Below, one piece after another: positions 38,429 to 45,682 of a stretch of DNA of 64,000 nt. The notes under the pieces were generated by a model that made no database searches, was not told where the DNA came from, and saw nothing but the letters and a program-made list of their open reading frames with translations. Position numbers and translations under genes: made by a program. Position 1 is the stretch's first letter. Each line of letters opens with the position of its first letter. Source of the stretch: Phenylobacterium montanum (lineage in GTDB: Bacteria; Pseudomonadota; Alphaproteobacteria; Caulobacterales; Caulobacteraceae); contig NZ_CP073078.1 in NCBI RefSeq assembly GCF_018135625.1, forward strand, positions 1 to 64,000, given 5' to 3'.

Positions 38429-39781
38429 ATGAAAAGCGAAGAGGCCGGCGTGCGCGGCCATCTGCTGCGAGTTTTCGGCCTGGGCTTCGGCCTCGCTGTG
38501 GTGATTGGCGGGGTGATCGGTTCGGGGATCATGCGCAACCCCGGCATCGTCGCGGCAGGTTTTCCGGATCCAAAATGGGTGCTCCTGGCCTGGCTGGCCG
38601 GCGGTGTGGTGGTGATGATCGACGCCATGCCCACGGTCGAGTTGGGCGCGGCGATCCCCCTGGCCGGCGGCCCCTATTCCCTGGCGGCGCGGGCGTTCGG
38701 GCCGCTGACCGGCTTCCTGGTCGGCTGGGCCGACTGGCTGCAGAACGCCGTCTCCACCGGCTTCATCACCGTGGCCTTCGGCGAATTCGTCCAGCGCATG
38801 GGCCTCTTCACCAGCCTGACCACCGGCGAGATCGCCATCGGCCTGGTGCTGGCCTGCGGGCTGATCAACTGGATCGGCACCCGGGTCGGGGGGGCTTCGC
38901 AGAACATCGGCAGCGCCTTGAAGGCGGTGGGGCTGACGATCCTGGTCGCGGCCCTGTTCCTGGCCCATGGCAAGGGCGTCGCTCCGCCCGCGCCGCCGCC
39001 GGCGGCTTTCTTCTGGGGGGCGCCGGCCATACTGGCGATCCAGGCGATCTATGGCGCCTATGGCGGCTGGCACGCGGCGGTCTATTTCTCCGAGGAGGTG
39101 CACCAGCCCGAGCGCAACGTGGCGCGGGCGACCTTCGGCGGCATCGTGTTGGTCACGGGGCTCTATCTGCTGGTCAACGCCGCGGTGCTGAAGGTGCTGC
39201 CGATTGGAGTCCTCGCCCAGTCCAAGCTCGCCGTGGCCGACGCGGCCATGGCCGTGCTCGGACCGATCAGCGGCAAGATCGTCACCGGCCTCGCCATCAT
39301 CTCGGTGGCCACCATCGCCAACCTGCAGATCATGGAGTACGTGCGCACGGGCTTCGCCATGGCCAGGAACGGGGTCATGCCGCCGAGCCTGGCGCGGGTC
39401 TCCAAAAGCGGGACGCCGCGGGTGAGCCTGGCGGTGGTTCTGGTCGTGACGATCGCCATCATCCTCTGCGCCGACCTGATCAAGGGGCAGCTCTACCAGA
39501 TCCTTTTGGAGATCTACGCGCCGTTCGTGATGCTGGTGTTCCTGGTGCTGGCGCTGGCCTCGATCCGCCTGCGCCTGGCCGAGCCGGACCTGCCGCGCCC
39601 CTGGAAGATGCCGCTGTTCCCGCTGCCGGCGCTGATGTCGGCGGCCATCAATGTGGTCCTGCTGGTGGCGTTCTTCCTGCGTAACGATTGGAAGACCAGC
39701 GCCAGTTCGGTCGGCCTGCTGGCTGGGGGAATGCTGATCTACCTGGTCGGCCGCTCGCGCTGGAAGCCGCTGACGGACTGA
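38429..39781 (+). CDS. APC-family amino-acid permease
   Basis: 450 residues with about 12 hydrophobic segments and the APC signature near the N-terminus (VIGGVIGSGIMRNPGIVAA), then PLAGGPYSLAARAFGPLTGFLVGWADWLQN. It resembles LAT/YjeH-type amino-acid transporters. The Shine-Dalgarno GAGGGGAGC precedes the ATG. The substrate is not readable; nearby gabT makes GABA or a related amine conceivable. Its 3' end overlaps convergent selU by 43 bases. Confidence 0.88.
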   Translation: MKSEEAGVRGHLLRVFGLGFGLAVVIGGVIGSGIMRNPGIVAAGFPDPKWVLLAWLAGGVVVMIDAMPTVELGAAIPLAGGPYSLAARAFGPLTGFLVGWADWLQNAVSTGFITVAFGEFVQRMGLFTSLTTGEIAIGLVLACGLINWIGTRVGGASQNIGSALKAVGLTILVAALFLAHGKGVAPPAPPPAAFFWGAPAILAIQAIYGAYGGWHAAVYFSEEVHQPERNVARATFGGIVLVTGLYLLVNAAVLKVLPIGVLAQSKLAVADAAMAVLGPISGKIVTGLAIISVATIANLQIMEYVRTGFAMARNGVMPPSLARVSKSGTPRVSLAVVLVVTIAIILCADLIKGQLYQILLEIYAPFVMLVFLVLALASIRLRLAEPDLPRPWKMPLFPLPALMSAAINVVLLVAFFLRNDWKTSASSVGLLAGGMLIYLVGRSRWKPLTD

Positions 39782-40815
39782 GCCACGGCCTCCGCCGCGG
39801 CCTCCAGTCCGGCCTCGTCGAGCCGGTCGATCGCCACCTGGGCCAGGGGCTCGACGCCGTGCTTGCGCCGGCCGCGGGCGTAGGCCGGGTCATAGTGCAA
39901 TTCCATCAGCGCCTCGGCGAGGGGGACATAGTCGCCGGCGGCGATCCATTTGCGCCACTCGATCAGCCGCTTTTGCGCCGGATAGACCGGCAGGCGGCGG
40001 AAGGCCTCCTCCAGCGCCGCGGCGTCGGCGATGATGTCGCCATAGGCCTCGGTCAGATAGCGGGCGCGCTCGGCCCTGGGGACCACCAACTCGATCCGCG
40101 GCGCGGTCTGCATGGCTTGCCATAGGGCGGGCGGGACCATGCGGTCGCCGACCTTGCTGGACTCGGCCTCGATCACCACCGGCAGCGCCGGGTCCAGCCG
40201 CTCCAGCGCCTGCAGCAGGCAGGATTCGAACAGCTTCTGGCTGGGTTGGGGATCGGCCATGGCGCCGAACAGCGAGCCGCGATGGCAGGCCAGGCCTTCC
40301 AGGTCGATTACCTGCAGCCCGCGCGCCGCCAGCTGCGCCAGCACCTCGGTCTTGCCGGAGCCGGTGTTGCCGTCCAGCAGGACAGGCTTCAGCGGCCGGG
40401 GGCGGTCGTACAGTTCCTCGCGCACCCGCCGGCGATAGGTCTTGTAGCCGCCGACCAGCACCGCCGTGCGCCAGCCCACCCGCGAGAGGATGGTGGCCAT
40501 GGAATTGGAGCGCTGCCCGCCGCGCCAGCAATAGACCAGGATCTTCGTTTCCGGCGGGGTGTCGGCCAGGGCCGTCTCCAGGTGGCGGGCGATGTTGCGC
40601 GCCACATAGGCCGCGCCGATGCGGTTGGCGCGGAAGCGGCTCTCCTGGACGTAGATGGTCCCGACCTCGGCGCGCTCCTCGTTGGTCAGAACGGGCAGGC
40701 TGACGGCGCCGGGAACATGGTCCTCGGCGTATTCGGCCGGGCTGCGCACGTCGACGATCAGGTCGAACGCCGCCAGGGCCTCGCCGTCCGCCTTGTCCAG
40801 CTGTTTGATCTGCAA
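39739..40815 (-). CDS. selU: tRNA 2-selenouridine synthase (SelU/MnmH)
   Basis: 358 residues: an N-terminal rhodanese domain (about 10-130) with catalytic Cys96 (YCWRGGQRS) and a C-terminal P-loop domain (GNTGSGKT, 149-156). The enzyme geranylates and then selenates 2-thiouridine at the wobble position of Lys, Glu and Gln tRNAs using selenophosphate. It is divergent from selD, which makes that donor, with 101 bases between them. No selA or selB is in the window. Confidence 0.95.
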   Translation of the reverse strand: MQIKQLDKADGEALAAFDLIVDVRSPAEYAEDHVPGAVSLPVLTNEERAEVGTIYVQESRFRANRIGAAYVARNIARHLETALADTPPETKILVYCWRGGQRSNSMATILSRVGWRTAVLVGGYKTYRRRVREELYDRPRPLKPVLLDGNTGSGKTEVLAQLAARGLQVIDLEGLACHRGSLFGAMADPQPSQKLFESCLLQALERLDPALPVVIEAESSKVGDRMVPPALWQAMQTAPRIELVVPRAERARYLTEAYGDIIADAAALEEAFRRLPVYPAQKRLIEWRKWIAAGDYVPLAEALMELHYDPAYARGRRKHGVEPLAQVAIDRLDEAGLEAAAEAVAQSVSGFQRERPTR

Positions 40816-40916
40816 GGGCCGCTATCCTTCGCCGCCCTTATGCGGTGGCCTCGAGGGGCTTGGCAATGGCGCCGCGGGGAGGGATGAAGGCTCGATCCTA
40901 GCCCCCGGAGCCGGCC

Positions 40917-41972
40917 ATGACCGAGACCCTGCGACTGACCAGCCTGGCCCATGGCGGCGGCTGTGGCTGCAAGCTTTCGCCAGGCGTGCTGCGCGAAATC
41001 CTGGCCAAGACCCCGGCGGCCGGAATGTTTCCCGACCTGATGGTCGGGACCGAGACCTCGGACGACGCTGCGGTGTGGCGGCTGAACGACAGCCAGGCCC
41101 TGGTGGCGACCACCGACTTCTTCATGCCGGTGGTGGACGATCCCTTCGACTTCGGCTGCATCGCCGCGACCAACGCCCTTTCCGACGTCTACGCGATGGG
41201 GGCGAAGCCGATCTTCGCCCTGGCCGTCGTCGGCATGCCGGTCGGTCGGATGCCGGTGGAGATGATCCAGCAGATCCTGGCCGGCGGCGCCTCGGTCTGC
41301 GCGGCGGCGGGGATACCGATCGCCGGGGGCCACTCGATCGACAGCGCCGAGCCGATCTATGGCCTGGTGGCCCTGGGCCTGGTCCATCCGGACCGGGTGC
41401 TGACCAACCGCGGCGGGCAGGACGGCGACGCCCTGATCCTGACCAAGCCCCTGGGCGTGGGCGTGCTCAGCGCCGCCTTCAAGCAGGAGCGGATGCCGCC
41501 GGGCGGCTACGAGGCCCTGGTCGCGACCACCACCCAGCTGAATACGGTCGGCTCGGCCCTGGCCGAGGCCGCGGGGGTGCACGCCGTCACCGACGTCACC
41601 GGTTTCGGCCTTTTGGGCCATGGCTTGGAGATGGCGCGCGGGGCGGGGCTGACGGCCGAAATCTTCGCCGATGCGCCTACGCTGCTCCCGGGCGTCGAGG
41701 CCCTGGCGCGCGAGGGGGTGCGCACGGGCGCCGCGAGCCGCAATTGGGCGAGCTATGGCGAGGCGATTCGCTTGCCGGCGGGGTTCGAGGCCTGGCGCCA
41801 GGACCTGCTGTCCGATCCGCAGACCAGCGGCGGCCTCCTGATCGCCGTCGCCCCATCGGAGGCCGACCCCGTGCTGGACCAGGTCAAGGCGGCCGGGTTC
41901 GCCGGCGCGCGTATCGTTGGACGGCTGAAAGCGGGGCCGCCGCTGGTCGAGGTGACGACGGCCGACGCCTGA
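40917..41972 (+). CDS. selD: Selenide, water dikinase (selenophosphate synthetase)
   Basis: 351 residues of the AIR-synthase-related kinase family, making selenophosphate from selenide and ATP. The glycine-rich N-terminal motif HGGGCGCKLSP carries Cys16 and Lys19, matching the essential Cys17 and Lys20 of E. coli SelD. The catalytic position is an ordinary cysteine codon, not an in-frame TGA. GGAG lies upstream. Paired divergently with selU, so the local role is tRNA selenation. Confidence 0.96.
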   Translation: MTETLRLTSLAHGGGCGCKLSPGVLREILAKTPAAGMFPDLMVGTETSDDAAVWRLNDSQALVATTDFFMPVVDDPFDFGCIAATNALSDVYAMGAKPIFALAVVGMPVGRMPVEMIQQILAGGASVCAAAGIPIAGGHSIDSAEPIYGLVALGLVHPDRVLTNRGGQDGDALILTKPLGVGVLSAAFKQERMPPGGYEALVATTTQLNTVGSALAEAAGVHAVTDVTGFGLLGHGLEMARGAGLTAEIFADAPTLLPGVEALAREGVRTGAASRNWASYGEAIRLPAGFEAWRQDLLSDPQTSGGLLIAVAPSEADPVLDQVKAAGFAGARIVGRLKAGPPLVEVTTADA

Positions 41973-43243: not shown

Positions 43244-43654
43244 CTATATTTTCAGCCGCCGCAGGCGTTCCAGGGAGCGGGACAGCGATGGCTCCTGGCG
43301 CAGCATCGCTTCGAGGTGCTTTTCCGCCAGTTCGGCGAAAAGCCGATCTCCTTCCGGCGTCAGCGTCAGGCGCACGCTGCGACGGTCTTCCAGGGAGGGC
43401 TGTCGTACGGCGAGGCCCGCCTTGGCCAGTCGGTCGACCAACTGTACGGCGGCGTGGTGGGTCAGAAGCAGCTGGTCGGCGAGATCCTTCATCGACATGG
43501 CCTCGCCGGGCCAGGCCTTGATGGCCAGCATGGCCTGGTACTGCTGCTGAGTGGTGCCGGCCTCGCGGTTGATCTGCTCGCTGGCGGCGACGAACTGGCG
43601 CAGGGCGAAGCGGAAGGCGGCCAGATCGGCGAAATGGTCCGGTTGGTCCGTCAT
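43244..43654 (-). CDS. MarR-family transcriptional regulator
   Basis: 136 residues with the winged helix MSMKDLADQLLLTHHAAVQLVDRLAKAGLAVRQ and the wing DRRSVRLTLTPEG. GGGGAGG precedes the ATG at 43654. A perfect 13-base palindrome at 43761-43773, about 107 bases upstream, is a likely own operator. It is divergent from the EF-Tu paralog leader, but the long distance and two terminators make direct control of that gene uncertain. Confidence 0.88.
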   Translation of the reverse strand: MTDQPDHFADLAAFRFALRQFVAASEQINREAGTTQQQYQAMLAIKAWPGEAMSMKDLADQLLLTHHAAVQLVDRLAKAGLAVRQPSLEDRRSVRLTLTPEGDRLFAELAEKHLEAMLRQEPSLSRSLERLRRLKI

Positions 43655-43760
43655 CGCGCCTCCCCAATCGCGCCGCCGTGAACCTATGTCTGCGGCCTGA
43701 TCCGGCAAAACGCAAACCGAAGGCCGCCAGATATTCCGCAAAGGGGGCTTTGTAAAATAT

Positions 43761-43773
43761 ATCATTAAATGAT
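43761..43773. promoter_or_regulatory. 13-bp palindrome, likely MarR operator
   Basis: ATCATTAAATGAT is perfectly palindromic around a central A, in an AT-rich stretch between the MarR gene and the leader of the EF-Tu paralog. It could control the MarR gene, the leader transcript, or both. Confidence 0.55.
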
Positions 43774-43960
43774 GAAAATCTTGCGCTTCGACCTGCTTGA
43801 GGTGTTGCGCAAGGAACGTGTCACTATCGGCCAGTGTCCCCAGGTCTTCGGCAGCGCGTTCAACTTTCTGCCCTTGGGCAAGTGCTGCGCCGCCGGCCCA
43901 CTTGCGCCGGCTTGAGAGCGATGTTATCTGCGCCCCTCGTTTTTGGAGAGCGTCAAGTCG

Positions 43961-44041
43961 ATGCAAGGTCTCGAACAGTTCGAGCAAGCGTTCCGTGCGG
44001 CGGTTGTCGCAGCGGATGCGCTCTATTGCGCGCAAGACTAG
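43961..44041 (+). CDS. Putative leader peptide 1 (26 aa)
   Basis: Short frame MQGLEQFEQAFRAAVVAADA followed by six more residues and TAG, with GGAGAG about 10 bases upstream. It is enclosed by the 12-base complementary arms 43930-43941 and 44056-44067, and its stop lies just before the hairpin and terminator 1. Position suggests a ribosome-sensing leader; a stand-alone small protein is possible. Confidence 0.45.
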   Translation: MQGLEQFEQAFRAAVVAADALYCAQD

Positions 44042-44058
44042 ACAGCCTTTCGTAGAAC

Positions 44059-44076
44059 GAGGGGCGCTGGCCCCTC
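44059..44076 (+). promoter_or_regulatory. Tetraloop hairpin before terminator 1
   Basis: GAGGGGC pairs with GCCCCTC around the loop GCTG. Its left arm is also part of the segment able to pair with 43930-43941, so the two structures exclude one another. Confidence 0.6.
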
Positions 44077-44088
44077 CAAACGGTTCGA

Positions 44089-44121
44089 AACCCTGGAAGG
44101 CCGGCGCCTCCGGGGTTTTTT
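44089..44121 (+). terminator. Intrinsic terminator 1 in EF-Tu paralog leader
   Basis: A 12-pair stem with one bulged A (44089-44101 with 44106-44117), a CGGC tetraloop, then a run of six T that begins within the stem end. It lies 48 bases after the first short frame and more than 350 bases before the EF-Tu-like gene. Confidence 0.85.
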
Positions 44122-44167
44122 ATTGGCCTGTCGCCCCGCCAGGCTGAGCCCGTGAAGGACACCGCCG

Positions 44168-44254
44168 ATGACGCCGGCGTTTGTGATCGCGACCACCGAA
44201 GACGCCCGCACCCTGTCGTGCGGCGAGGCGGCCGCTTGGCGATCGCACCCTTAA
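44168..44254 (+). CDS. Putative leader peptide 2 (28 aa)
   Basis: Short frame starting MTPAFVIATTEDAR and ending WRSHP-TAA, with a strong AAGGA eight bases upstream. It ends seven bases before the first of two competing stems that precede terminator 2, the classic geometry of a ribosome-controlled attenuator. No run of a single regulatory codon is obvious, so amino-acid sensing as in trp or his leaders is not indicated. Confidence 0.5.
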   Translation: MTPAFVIATTEDARTLSCGEAAAWRSHP

Positions 44255-44317
44255 AGCCTTCCCCAGTCCATCGCCCTGGGGAGCCGTTGCGGACCTCCAG
44301 GGCCACCCGAGATGCGG

Positions 44318-44349
44318 GCCCGCTGATCCGGACGGTCAGCGGGCTTTTT
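44318..44349 (+). terminator. Intrinsic terminator 2 in EF-Tu paralog leader
   Basis: GCCCGCTGA (44318-44326) pairs perfectly with TCAGCGGGC (44336-44344), followed by TTTTT. The upstream GGGCC at 44300-44304 can pair with part of its left arm, giving an alternative fold. It lies 127 bases before the EF-Tu-like start. Confidence 0.85.
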
Positions 44350-44392
44350 CCATTCCGGCCCAGCTCCGCGTCGAGGGGCGGGTCCGACCGAG

Positions 44393-44408
44393 ATTGGCGC
44401 GCGCCAAT
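44393..44408. promoter_or_regulatory. 16-bp perfect palindrome before the EF-Tu paralog
   Basis: ATTGGCGCGCGCCAAT is self-complementary over all 16 bases and lies between terminator 2 and the start codon. It could be a protein-binding site or an mRNA hairpin affecting translation. Confidence 0.5.
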
Positions 44409-44476
44409 ACCATGCCGTCCGGGCCGGGCCCGGCCAGTCCGACCCGGGCGGCGCTTGCAACAGGCTGGAGATCCCA

Positions 44477-45682
44477 ATGCCTATCAACACCCCCATGGAG
44501 GGCAAAATCCATGTGAACGTCGGCACCATCGGGCATGTCGACCACGGCAAGACCACACTGACCTCGGCCCTGACCCAGGTCCAGGCGATGCGGCTGGGCG
44601 GCCAGGCCCTGTCGTTCGACCAGATCGACCGGGCGCCGGAGGAAAAAGCCCGCGGCATCACCATCAACACGGCCCATGTGGAATACGAGTCTGAGACCCG
44701 GCACTACGCCCACATCGACTGTCCCGGTCACGCCGACTACGTGAAGAACATGATCACGGGCGCCTCCCAGATGGACGGGGCGATCCTGCTGGTCGACGCC
44801 ACCAAGGGCGCGGCCAAGCAGACCATCGAGCACGTCCTGCTCGCCCGCCAGGTCAATGTCCGGCACATGGTCGTCTATGTGAACAAGATGGACGCCTTGG
44901 ACCCGTCCGAGCGGGCGGACATGCGCGAGCTGATCCAGCTCGAGATCGGCGCCCTTCTGGCCTCGCAGGGCTATCCGGAGGCGGTGTTCGTGTTCGGCAG
45001 CGCGCTGAACGCGATCGAGGCCGTGCGCCGGGGCGACCTGGCCGATCCGGACCTTGTGAGCGTGGTCGAGCTGGTGGCGGCGCTGGACGCGGCCATTCCC
45101 GATCCCGTGCGCGACTTCGACAGCCCGTTCCTGATGCCGATCGAAGGGGTGCACACCATTCCCGGGCGCGGCACGGTGGTCTCGGGCCGGGTCGAGCGCG
45201 GGGTGGTCAAGGTCGGCCAGGCGGTCGAGATCGTCGGCCTGGACAATGACGGGGCCGAGGTCGTGGTGACGGGCACGCAGGCCTTCCGGAAGAACATTCC
45301 GGAGGCGCGGGCGGGCATGAACGTCGGCCTGTTGCTGCGCGGGCTCAAGCGCGACGACGTCCAGCGCGGCCAGGTTTTGAGCGCGCCGGGCTCCATTCGC
45401 GCCCGCACCCGCGGCAAGGCTCAGATCTTCGTGCTGACGGCCGAGGAAGGCGGGCGGCACACGCCGTTCGCCAGCGGCTATCGCCCGCAGCTGTTCTTCG
45501 GGGTCACCGACGTCACCGGCGTGATCCAGGTGGACAGCGGGGCCGGCGTGCATCCCGGCGACCAGGCTGAAATCAGCTTCGAGCTGACCAAGCCGGTCGG
45601 CGTCGAGCCAGGCGTCCGCTTCGCCATCCGCGAAGGCGGCAAGACCGTCGGCGCGGGTCTCGTCACCGAGGTGAGCGACTAG
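44477..45682 (+). CDS. EF-Tu paralog (translation elongation factor Tu-like GTPase)
   Basis: 401 residues, collinear with EF-Tu over all three domains. G1 is GHVDHGKT (19-26), switch [12 protein letters not shown]3 DCPGH with His85, G4 NKMD (136-139), then [20 protein letters not shown] and a normal RFAIREGG C-terminal region. It is too divergent to be the housekeeping copy and stands alone, away from str/rpl genes. Where EF-Tu has Arg333-Thr334 (E. coli numbering, in YFRTTDVTG) this protein has Gly342-Val343. The ATG at 44477 follows GGCTGGAGA. A long attenuator-like leader precedes it. A stress or antibiotic-tolerant EF-Tu is a reasonable hypothesis. Confidence 0.9.

Follow-up and report, generated by a model that had tools for sequence, protein, structure and literature searches.

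We propose that the divergent EF-Tu gene described here is held off by two ribosome-controlled transcription attenuators acting in series, with failure of EF-Tu as the most likely trigger of its release, and we assign this reading a probability of roughly 0.6. The gene lies in the window, i.e. the whole stretch of 64,000 nt on the forward strand of contig NZ_CP073078.1 (GCF_018135625.1) of Phenylobacterium montanum. Its leader is very probably an attenuator: the tandem, ribosome-controlled arrangement first suggested by a sequence-only reading of the locus is supported by conservation among orthologs, by helix-partner tests, by an aromatic codon at position -5 of the short upstream frames (uORFs), and by a promoter-like pair located upstream. 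The best reading of the sequence is that of an inducible, perhaps inhibitor-tolerant EF-Tu, which would be turned on when EF-Tu function fails. The following elements make up the locus:

43902–43930, plus strand: predicted promoter (TTGCGC at 43902–43907, 17-nt spacer, TATCTG at 43925–43930)
43961–44041, plus strand: uORF1, 26 codons, ending in ALYCAQD, with the Tyr codon TAT at -5 (44024–44026)
44045–44053, plus strand: segment S1, predicted to pair with S2 if not covered by a ribosome
44057–44065, plus strand: segment S2, partner of S1 or S3
44068–44077, plus strand: segment S3, partner of S2 or of S4 (antiterminator)
44091–44121, plus strand: terminator 1 (S4 at 44091–44103, S5 at 44105–44115, T run at 44116–44121)
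44168–44254, plus strand: uORF2, 28 codons, ending in AAAWRSHP, with the Trp codon TGG at -5 (44237–44239)
44261–44303, plus strand: mutually exclusive stems of unit 2 by folding, 44261–44281 versus 44273–44303
44316–44350, plus strand: terminator 2 with T run (44316–44346 in the pattern scan)
44393–44452, plus strand: third conserved element, a palindromic hairpin (44393–44408) and a long hairpin (44414–44452)
44477–45682, plus strand: EF-Tu paralog of 401 aa, distinct subfamily, altered aminoacyl/inhibitor site

By profile search, the frame at 44477–45682 encodes EF-Tu over its full length (NF000766, 541.4 bits at a cut-off of 449), falling just short of the cut-off of TIGR00485 (519.4 versus 522.4 bits). 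Two canonical EF-Tu copies, near 5.13 and 5.15 Mb of the same genome, share 58% identity with the paralog, and orthologs from other genomes are 75–85% identical to it. Including the window copy, 15 intact paralog genes were in hand, all of which keep the GTPase residues D80, G83, H84, K89 and N90. Ortholog-bearing genomes numbered 5/199 in the family sample (E 1e-140), 10/398 in the order sample and 2/385 in the class sample (both E 1e-150), and later samples gave 5/60, 1/5, 2/105 and 3/75; the samples overlap, and the family, order and class counts each include the window's own genome. The distribution of the subfamily is patchy. When placed in a tree with 28 canonical EF-Tus, the paralogs form a single clade with a support of 100, and the canonical copies of the window genome cluster with EF-Tus of a Rhodospirillaceae MAG and of Lichenicoccus, both of which we take to be alphaproteobacterial. 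Two paralogs (L012 and L013) adjoin three from another family (L123, L124 and L127); copies of one family are thus not all together in the tree, which suggests transfer or old paralogy. Matches listed in the contig profile scan were filled with canonical EF-Tus. A plasmid search matched 97 records, all with less than 60% identity, so that no copy of the subfamily was seen there; a Streptomyces plasmid EF-Tu (L135), which was not placed in the tree, is canonical at almost every site compared. In one relative (G224), the leader is retained and the paralog frame is truncated (L146, 1712–2056), which makes the gene look dispensable in this genome. The genes mnmH (tRNA 2-selenouridine synthase) and selD (selenophosphate synthase) lie 2.5–4.7 kb upstream of the paralog (39739–41972), and no tRNA or tmRNA gene was found in the window.

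Among 80 canonical EF-Tus, two of which come from the window genome, 173 alignment columns agree in at least 97% of the sequences, and 20 of these columns are replaced in at least 14 of the 15 paralogs, including positions 216, 228, 259, 260, 265, 266, 333 and 334. E259, D216 and R333 are invariant in all 80 canonical proteins and lost in every paralog (E259Q and R333G in 15/15), and T334 is kept in a single paralog. Three further positions, for which 73 canonical proteins were compared, show the same tendency: position 218 is His in 14 paralogs and Asn in one (canonical Phe in 68), position 272 is Met in all 15 (canonical Asp or Glu in 72), and position 160 is Gln in 11 and His in four (canonical Tyr in 70, Gln in one). 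We take R333 and T334 to be sites of pulvomycin resistance and Y160 to be a site of kirromycin resistance, and our list of aminoacyl-pocket residues, which includes D216, F218 and T228, is likewise an assumption. Positions 120, 124, 316, 329, 375 and 378, presumably kirromycin sites, are canonical in all 15 paralogs; 329 and 378 are also taken to be T-stem residues. In a published review, D216 and E259 appear among 12 contacts of GE2270A, and a salt bridge between R223 and E259 is described as a lock on this inhibitor (PMC8183687). Ten of the 12 listed contacts, G257 and G275 among them, are unchanged in the paralogs. Altered inhibitor-binding residues, the feature by which an inhibitor-resistant EF-Tu would be recognized, are found at E259 (E259Q), D216 and R333 (R333G), each in 15/15. 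The paralog is likely to be a functional EF-Tu whose aminoacyl/inhibitor site has been rebuilt; that it tolerates EF-Tu inhibitors is, to our mind, evenly balanced, and naming any given drug would be a guess. This bears on the feedback on EF-Tu levels that the sequence-only reading had envisaged: given that the drug and aminoacyl site of the paralog is altered, a replacement for blocked EF-Tu is suggested instead, and ribosome position is retained as the signal.

Similar leaders precede all 14 orthologs with enough upstream DNA, the window included. Another locus (L127) has just 184 nt upstream of the gene and was dropped from all unit-1 counts, and a model search added a leader without a gene in hand (L139) and the leader before the truncated gene (L146), bringing the total to 16. 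Loss of the frames and pairings at homologous loci had been named in advance as an argument against the proposal, and homologous loci keep both. In genome G402, L139 lies at a contig end, and the paralog L127 is preceded by 184 nt from the end of a leader; where they overlap, these upstream stretches differ in sequence, which makes them separate loci, and the genome may carry two copies or be a mixed assembly. A covariance model of unit 1 (R1, L128 left out) matched 51 of 299 genomes of the order at an E value of 0.01. Eight matches scored 60.9–78.8 bits and all fall in paralog-bearing genomes; seven of these eight leaders were part of the training set, that of G402 was not. The next scores were 34.8 bits and lower, and three of these weaker matches were read: one (33.1 bits) is the true leader before the truncated paralog, the other two (L144 and L145) are ordinary terminator stretches. 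Two other genomes of the order that bear the paralog (G487 and G492) are absent among the matches listed, and the sample of 299 genomes may not include them. DNA searches with the leader recovered only the window's own genome within the genus (1/5 genomes) and matched 27/199 genomes of the family, own genome included; these matches are mostly short terminator-like or other stretches, and those in G153 and G048 (L016 and L022) precede the ortholog. No Rfam family matched the window at gathering score, and a known Rfam leader or riboswitch was dropped as a candidate. Six sub-threshold Rfam matches fall within 43650–44490; a sub-threshold match of 44016–44121 on the minus strand to the Burkholderia sRNA Bp2_287 (27.7 bits, gathering score 70) probably reflects terminator likeness.

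Transcription is predicted to start near 43937. A TTGnnn-17-TAnnnn pair is located 6–30 nt before uORF1 in all 16 leaders, as judged by a promoter scan that gives credit for TTG and TA and accepts spacers of 16–18; a sigma-70 scan did not pick up the pair at 43902–43930. In five leaders (L012, L013, L123, L124 and L139), the ATG follows the -10 box by 6–9 nt, and uORF1 would thus start at or near the first base of the transcript. Both short frames reported by the sequence-only reading (26 and 28 aa) are present, each with a purine-rich ribosome site upstream, and by its sequence every leader (16/16) would give a transcript that opens with a translatable uORF behind a predicted promoter, as in a ribosome-mediated attenuator. 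A start site between the terminators and the gene had been considered fatal to the proposal; 14 of the 15 gene copies have no such TTG/TA pair within the last 170 nt before the gene, L134 being the exception. Transcripts of the gene should therefore pass the terminators.

Most of the uORFs share a type of codon at a fixed distance from the stems, as expected if it served for sensing. In the first set of leaders, Tyr or Trp occupies codon -5 in 10/14 uORF1 and 6/12 uORF2, and at any other position from -1 to -10 these residues never occur more than three times. Adding L139 and L146 gives 12/16 for uORF1, all of them Tyr, and 7/13 for uORF2, leaving six uORF2 with neither residue. Overall, 19 of 29 uORFs have Tyr or Trp at -5 against 1.95 expected (13/19 against 1.34 when near-copies are removed), an enrichment for which the P values are too small given that the leaders are related. 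Three of the 19 cases (uORF1 and uORF2 of L139, uORF1 of L146) come from leaders found after the pattern had been noted, and the model that found them begins at the stop codon, so that the -5 codon lies outside it. The exceptions in uORF1 are Arg (L121 and L122), Gln (L128) and Cys (L134). Where Tyr is present in uORF1, it closes a short conserved stretch, (E/A)(S/L/R)Y, before the last four codons. The peptides are otherwise unconserved in sequence and in length (9–27 residues), and a functional-peptide reading was dropped because of this scant conservation outside the end. Assuming a ribosome footprint that reaches roughly 15 nt past the P site, a ribosome waiting for codon -5 would reach only to the stop codon and leave S1 free, and a ribosome with the stop codon in its A site would cover S1.

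The working parts of unit 1 appear to be five segments past the stop codon, present in all 16 leaders, which offer the exclusive pairings S1:S2, S2:S3, S3:S4 (antiterminator) and S4:S5 (terminator). The switch as such had been anticipated, with a different list of parts: it also counted a far 12-base arm at 43930–43941, which is indeed perfectly complementary to 44056–44067. As an RNA structure, this arm had to be abandoned, since it overlaps the -10 box (43925–43930) and the predicted transcription start; five of the 16 leaders have no such arm because only 6–9 nt separate the -10 box from uORF1. The remaining stems proposed earlier (44059–44076, 44261–44281 and 44273–44303) can each form in folding. 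The region 43920–44125 folds far better than its shuffles (z -5.37, 0/200), and terminator 1, previously placed at 44089–44121, folds at -19.2 kcal/mol (44091–44121) and is missed by the terminator pattern scan. Two states were folded, ON with the RNA from just past the stop codon to just before S5, and OFF with 11 nt more hidden, to mimic a ribosome at the stop codon; the folds were judged by eye, the automatic S4 counter being poorly defined. The ON fold (S1:S2 plus S3:S4) was obtained in 13/14 leaders, L128 lacking the antiterminator, and the OFF fold (S2:S3) in 11/14, with L013, L125 and L126 favouring S3:S4; L139 and L146 give both folds, which brings the totals to 15/16 and 13/16, respectively. 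When the whole terminator is included, 25 of the 28 folds computed for both states contain it at equilibrium (by eye), and the switch must therefore be kinetic and chosen during transcription.

The pairings prefer their native partners. In partner-swap tests, expressed as the fraction of 5000 permutations between orthologs that pair as well as the native combination, segments taken from the folds gave 0.0000 for each of the four helices (n=14 leaders) and at most 0.0014 when near-copies were removed (L013, L134, L124 and L122, plus L139 for the count at -5), and the control pairings S1:S3, S2:S5 and S1:S4 gave 0.10–0.56. Given that segments chosen from predicted folds favour native partners, the test was repeated with fixed windows, which yielded 0.0002 for S1:S2, 0.0004 for S2:S3 and 0.0002 for S4:S5 (0.0020, 0.0014 and 0.0052 without near-copies), and 0.14–0.89 for six control pairings. 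Here, the antiterminator S3:S4 is borderline only (0.0236 for all 14 leaders, 0.0822 without near-copies), so that the exclusive stems of an attenuator, intrinsic terminator included, are found with this one helix borderline. Covariation analysis, proposed earlier as a check, gave a score of 0.242 for S1:S2 and S4:S5 in an alignment of 13 leaders (A1), against 0.170 in shuffles, none of 500 being as high. Weaker measures from A1 point the same way (seven pairs with changes on both sides versus 3.8, 20/500; 16 pair types versus 13.4, 50/500); in S1:S2, six of nine pairs change on both sides, and only 76% of the cells pair. Visual inspection also shows an exchange of C-G for G-C on two distinct gene-tree branches, at the pair that the opening base of S3 makes with a base close to the end of S4; this S4 base lies in the loop of the terminator.

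A second unit is present in many of the leaders, and that of the window folds poorly. Terminator 2, placed at 44318–44349 by the sequence-only reading, is matched by the pattern scan, which proves nothing by itself, since the scan found two sites where 2.2 are expected by chance. The region 44126–44355 does not beat its shuffles (z -1.15, 27/200), and the expected ON fold was not obtained for the window's own unit 2 (folding, by eye). A T run follows the uORF2 stop codon within 130 nt in 9 of the 12 leaders with a uORF2 that were examined, L121, L122 and L126 having a unit 2 without one; L125, L129 and L146 have no unit 2. In eight of the nine leaders with a T run, the ON window of unit 2 forms a first hairpin and a second downstream pairing (by eye), which takes the 5' arm of the terminator in seven and only touches the terminator edge in L123. 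Between terminator 2 and the gene, the palindromic hairpin at 44393–44408 has the sequence ATTGGCGCGCGCCAAT, and the stem of the long hairpin (44414–44452) changes in step across most orthologs and leaves the ribosome site uncovered.

We suggest the following course of events, the ON/OFF logic of which we hold to be probable, its direction being supported by structure. Transcription would begin just before uORF1. If uORF1 is promptly translated to its stop codon, the ribosome would cover S1, S2 would pair with S3, and the S4:S5 terminator would form and end the transcript. With a ribosome that has stopped no later than codon -5 (Tyr in the majority of uORF1, Trp in many uORF2), or with no ribosome present, S1 would pair with S2 and S3 with S4, no terminator would form, and RNA polymerase would read through; unit 2 would then repeat the same test. 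Read-through would yield the divergent EF-Tu with its rebuilt aminoacyl/inhibitor pocket. The likeliest trigger would be the loss of working EF-Tu, e.g. through inhibitors of the GE2270A, pulvomycin or kirromycin type, and codons read by scarce tRNAs, perhaps those for Tyr and Trp, would lose their ternary complex first. Trigger and resistance are both plausible, and we give even odds to EF-Tu failure being the main trigger. The stricter proposal that this alphaproteobacterial subfamily is an inducible inhibitor-resistance factor, with a leader dedicated to sensing shortage of ternary complex through a Tyr/Trp codon, often twice, is tentative and falls somewhat below an even chance. If true, it would provide a direct, cis-acting gauge of EF-Tu function in bacteria, explain the silence of a spare EF-Tu until it is needed, extend natural tolerance of EF-Tu inhibitors beyond the producers, and put to a sharp test the notion that particular codons are the first to starve when EF-Tu is short. 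To our knowledge, it would also be the first EF-Tu gene switched by ribosome position; no EF-Tu gene under ribosome-mediated attenuation was found among the matches listed in a search of titles and abstract openings of mainly open-access literature. In a published model with two tRNAs, the rarer one is left without ternary complex once EF-Tu drops below a threshold, and EF-Tu is then predicted to bind hardly any of a tRNA whose supply is low relative to its codon use (PMC6692046).

The leader might instead report translation stress in general, in which case any slow-down (tetracycline, chloramphenicol or starvation) would induce the gene, and the paralog would be an EF-Tu for stress conditions and not one for inhibitor resistance. 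The proposed logic would indeed switch the gene on in every case in which the stop codon is not reached; the E. coli uORF toiL reacts to five or more classes of antibiotics (PMC12121999), and Streptomyces tuf3 belongs to the WblC regulon for translation-targeting antibiotics (PMC7157823). However, a general sensor accounts neither for Tyr or Trp at a single fixed codon nor for the rebuilt aminoacyl/inhibitor site, and we consider it rather unlikely. Alternatively, the codon at -5 (19/29 uORFs) could monitor charged tRNA-Tyr and tRNA-Trp themselves, with a paralog that serves particular aminoacyl-tRNAs when these fail, as the replacement of positions 216, 218 and 228 in at least 14 of 15 paralogs might suggest. 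Yet biosynthetic leaders carry a run of codons, whereas here the codon is usually single and Tyr and Trp both serve; moreover, the target is neither a biosynthesis nor a synthetase gene, and the GTPase residues as well as 329 and 378 are kept, which makes this alternative unlikely. Less probable still is an arrest peptide that senses a drug, stalling together with a small molecule bound in the tunnel, in the manner of erm and ABC-F leaders: the conserved (E/A)(S/L/R)Y of the Tyr-bearing uORF1 would fit, but the remainder of the peptide varies in sequence and length. Finally, it is highly improbable that the leader is ordinary insulation, made of two fortuitous frames and of terminators that end upstream transcripts, the gene itself being expressed from another site, since, although strong terminators by themselves require no switch and the folding of the unit 2 region does not surpass that of shuffles, the promoter pair and frames are conserved, the exclusive helices prefer their native partners, and 14/15 copies have no such promoter pair past the last terminator.

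Tandem attenuation responding to EF-Tu failure, the reading we favour, has features in common with several known systems. The trp and his leaders are ribosome-mediated transcription attenuators, and in the trp leader an absent ribosome does not turn the gene on; unlike there, the five segments described here imply that absence of the ribosome should do so. The leader shares with those of trp/his, vmlR (PMC9226507) and wblC (PMC7157823) a short uORF, a choice of stems by ribosome position, and an intrinsic terminator before the gene. In contrast to these attenuators, the target is an EF-Tu gene, two units are arranged in series, and a usually lone Tyr or Trp codon at -5 takes the place of a codon run. 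Sensing of antibiotics through uORFs is already known (PMC12121999, PMC9226507, PMC12218461). The toiL uORF of E. coli topAI likewise senses translation stress, but there repression acts at the ribosome site, with Rho-dependent termination (PMC12121999), whereas the terminators here are intrinsic. Compared by its published description, the closest counterpart of the protein is Streptomyces EF-Tu3 (tuf3; actEF-Tu), also a divergent, conditional EF-Tu paralog, which is reported to be resistant to EF-Tu inhibitors and expressed under stress (PMC4342817, PMC12309360), and which appears in a 2015 survey as the only clearly distinct EF-Tu-like subfamily. WblC, the activator of tuf3, is itself encoded by a gene under uORF-dependent attenuation (PMC7157823). 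The subfamily presented here is found in alphaproteobacteria rather than in Streptomyces, and, in contrast to the WblC-dependent activation of tuf3, its control looks cis-acting.
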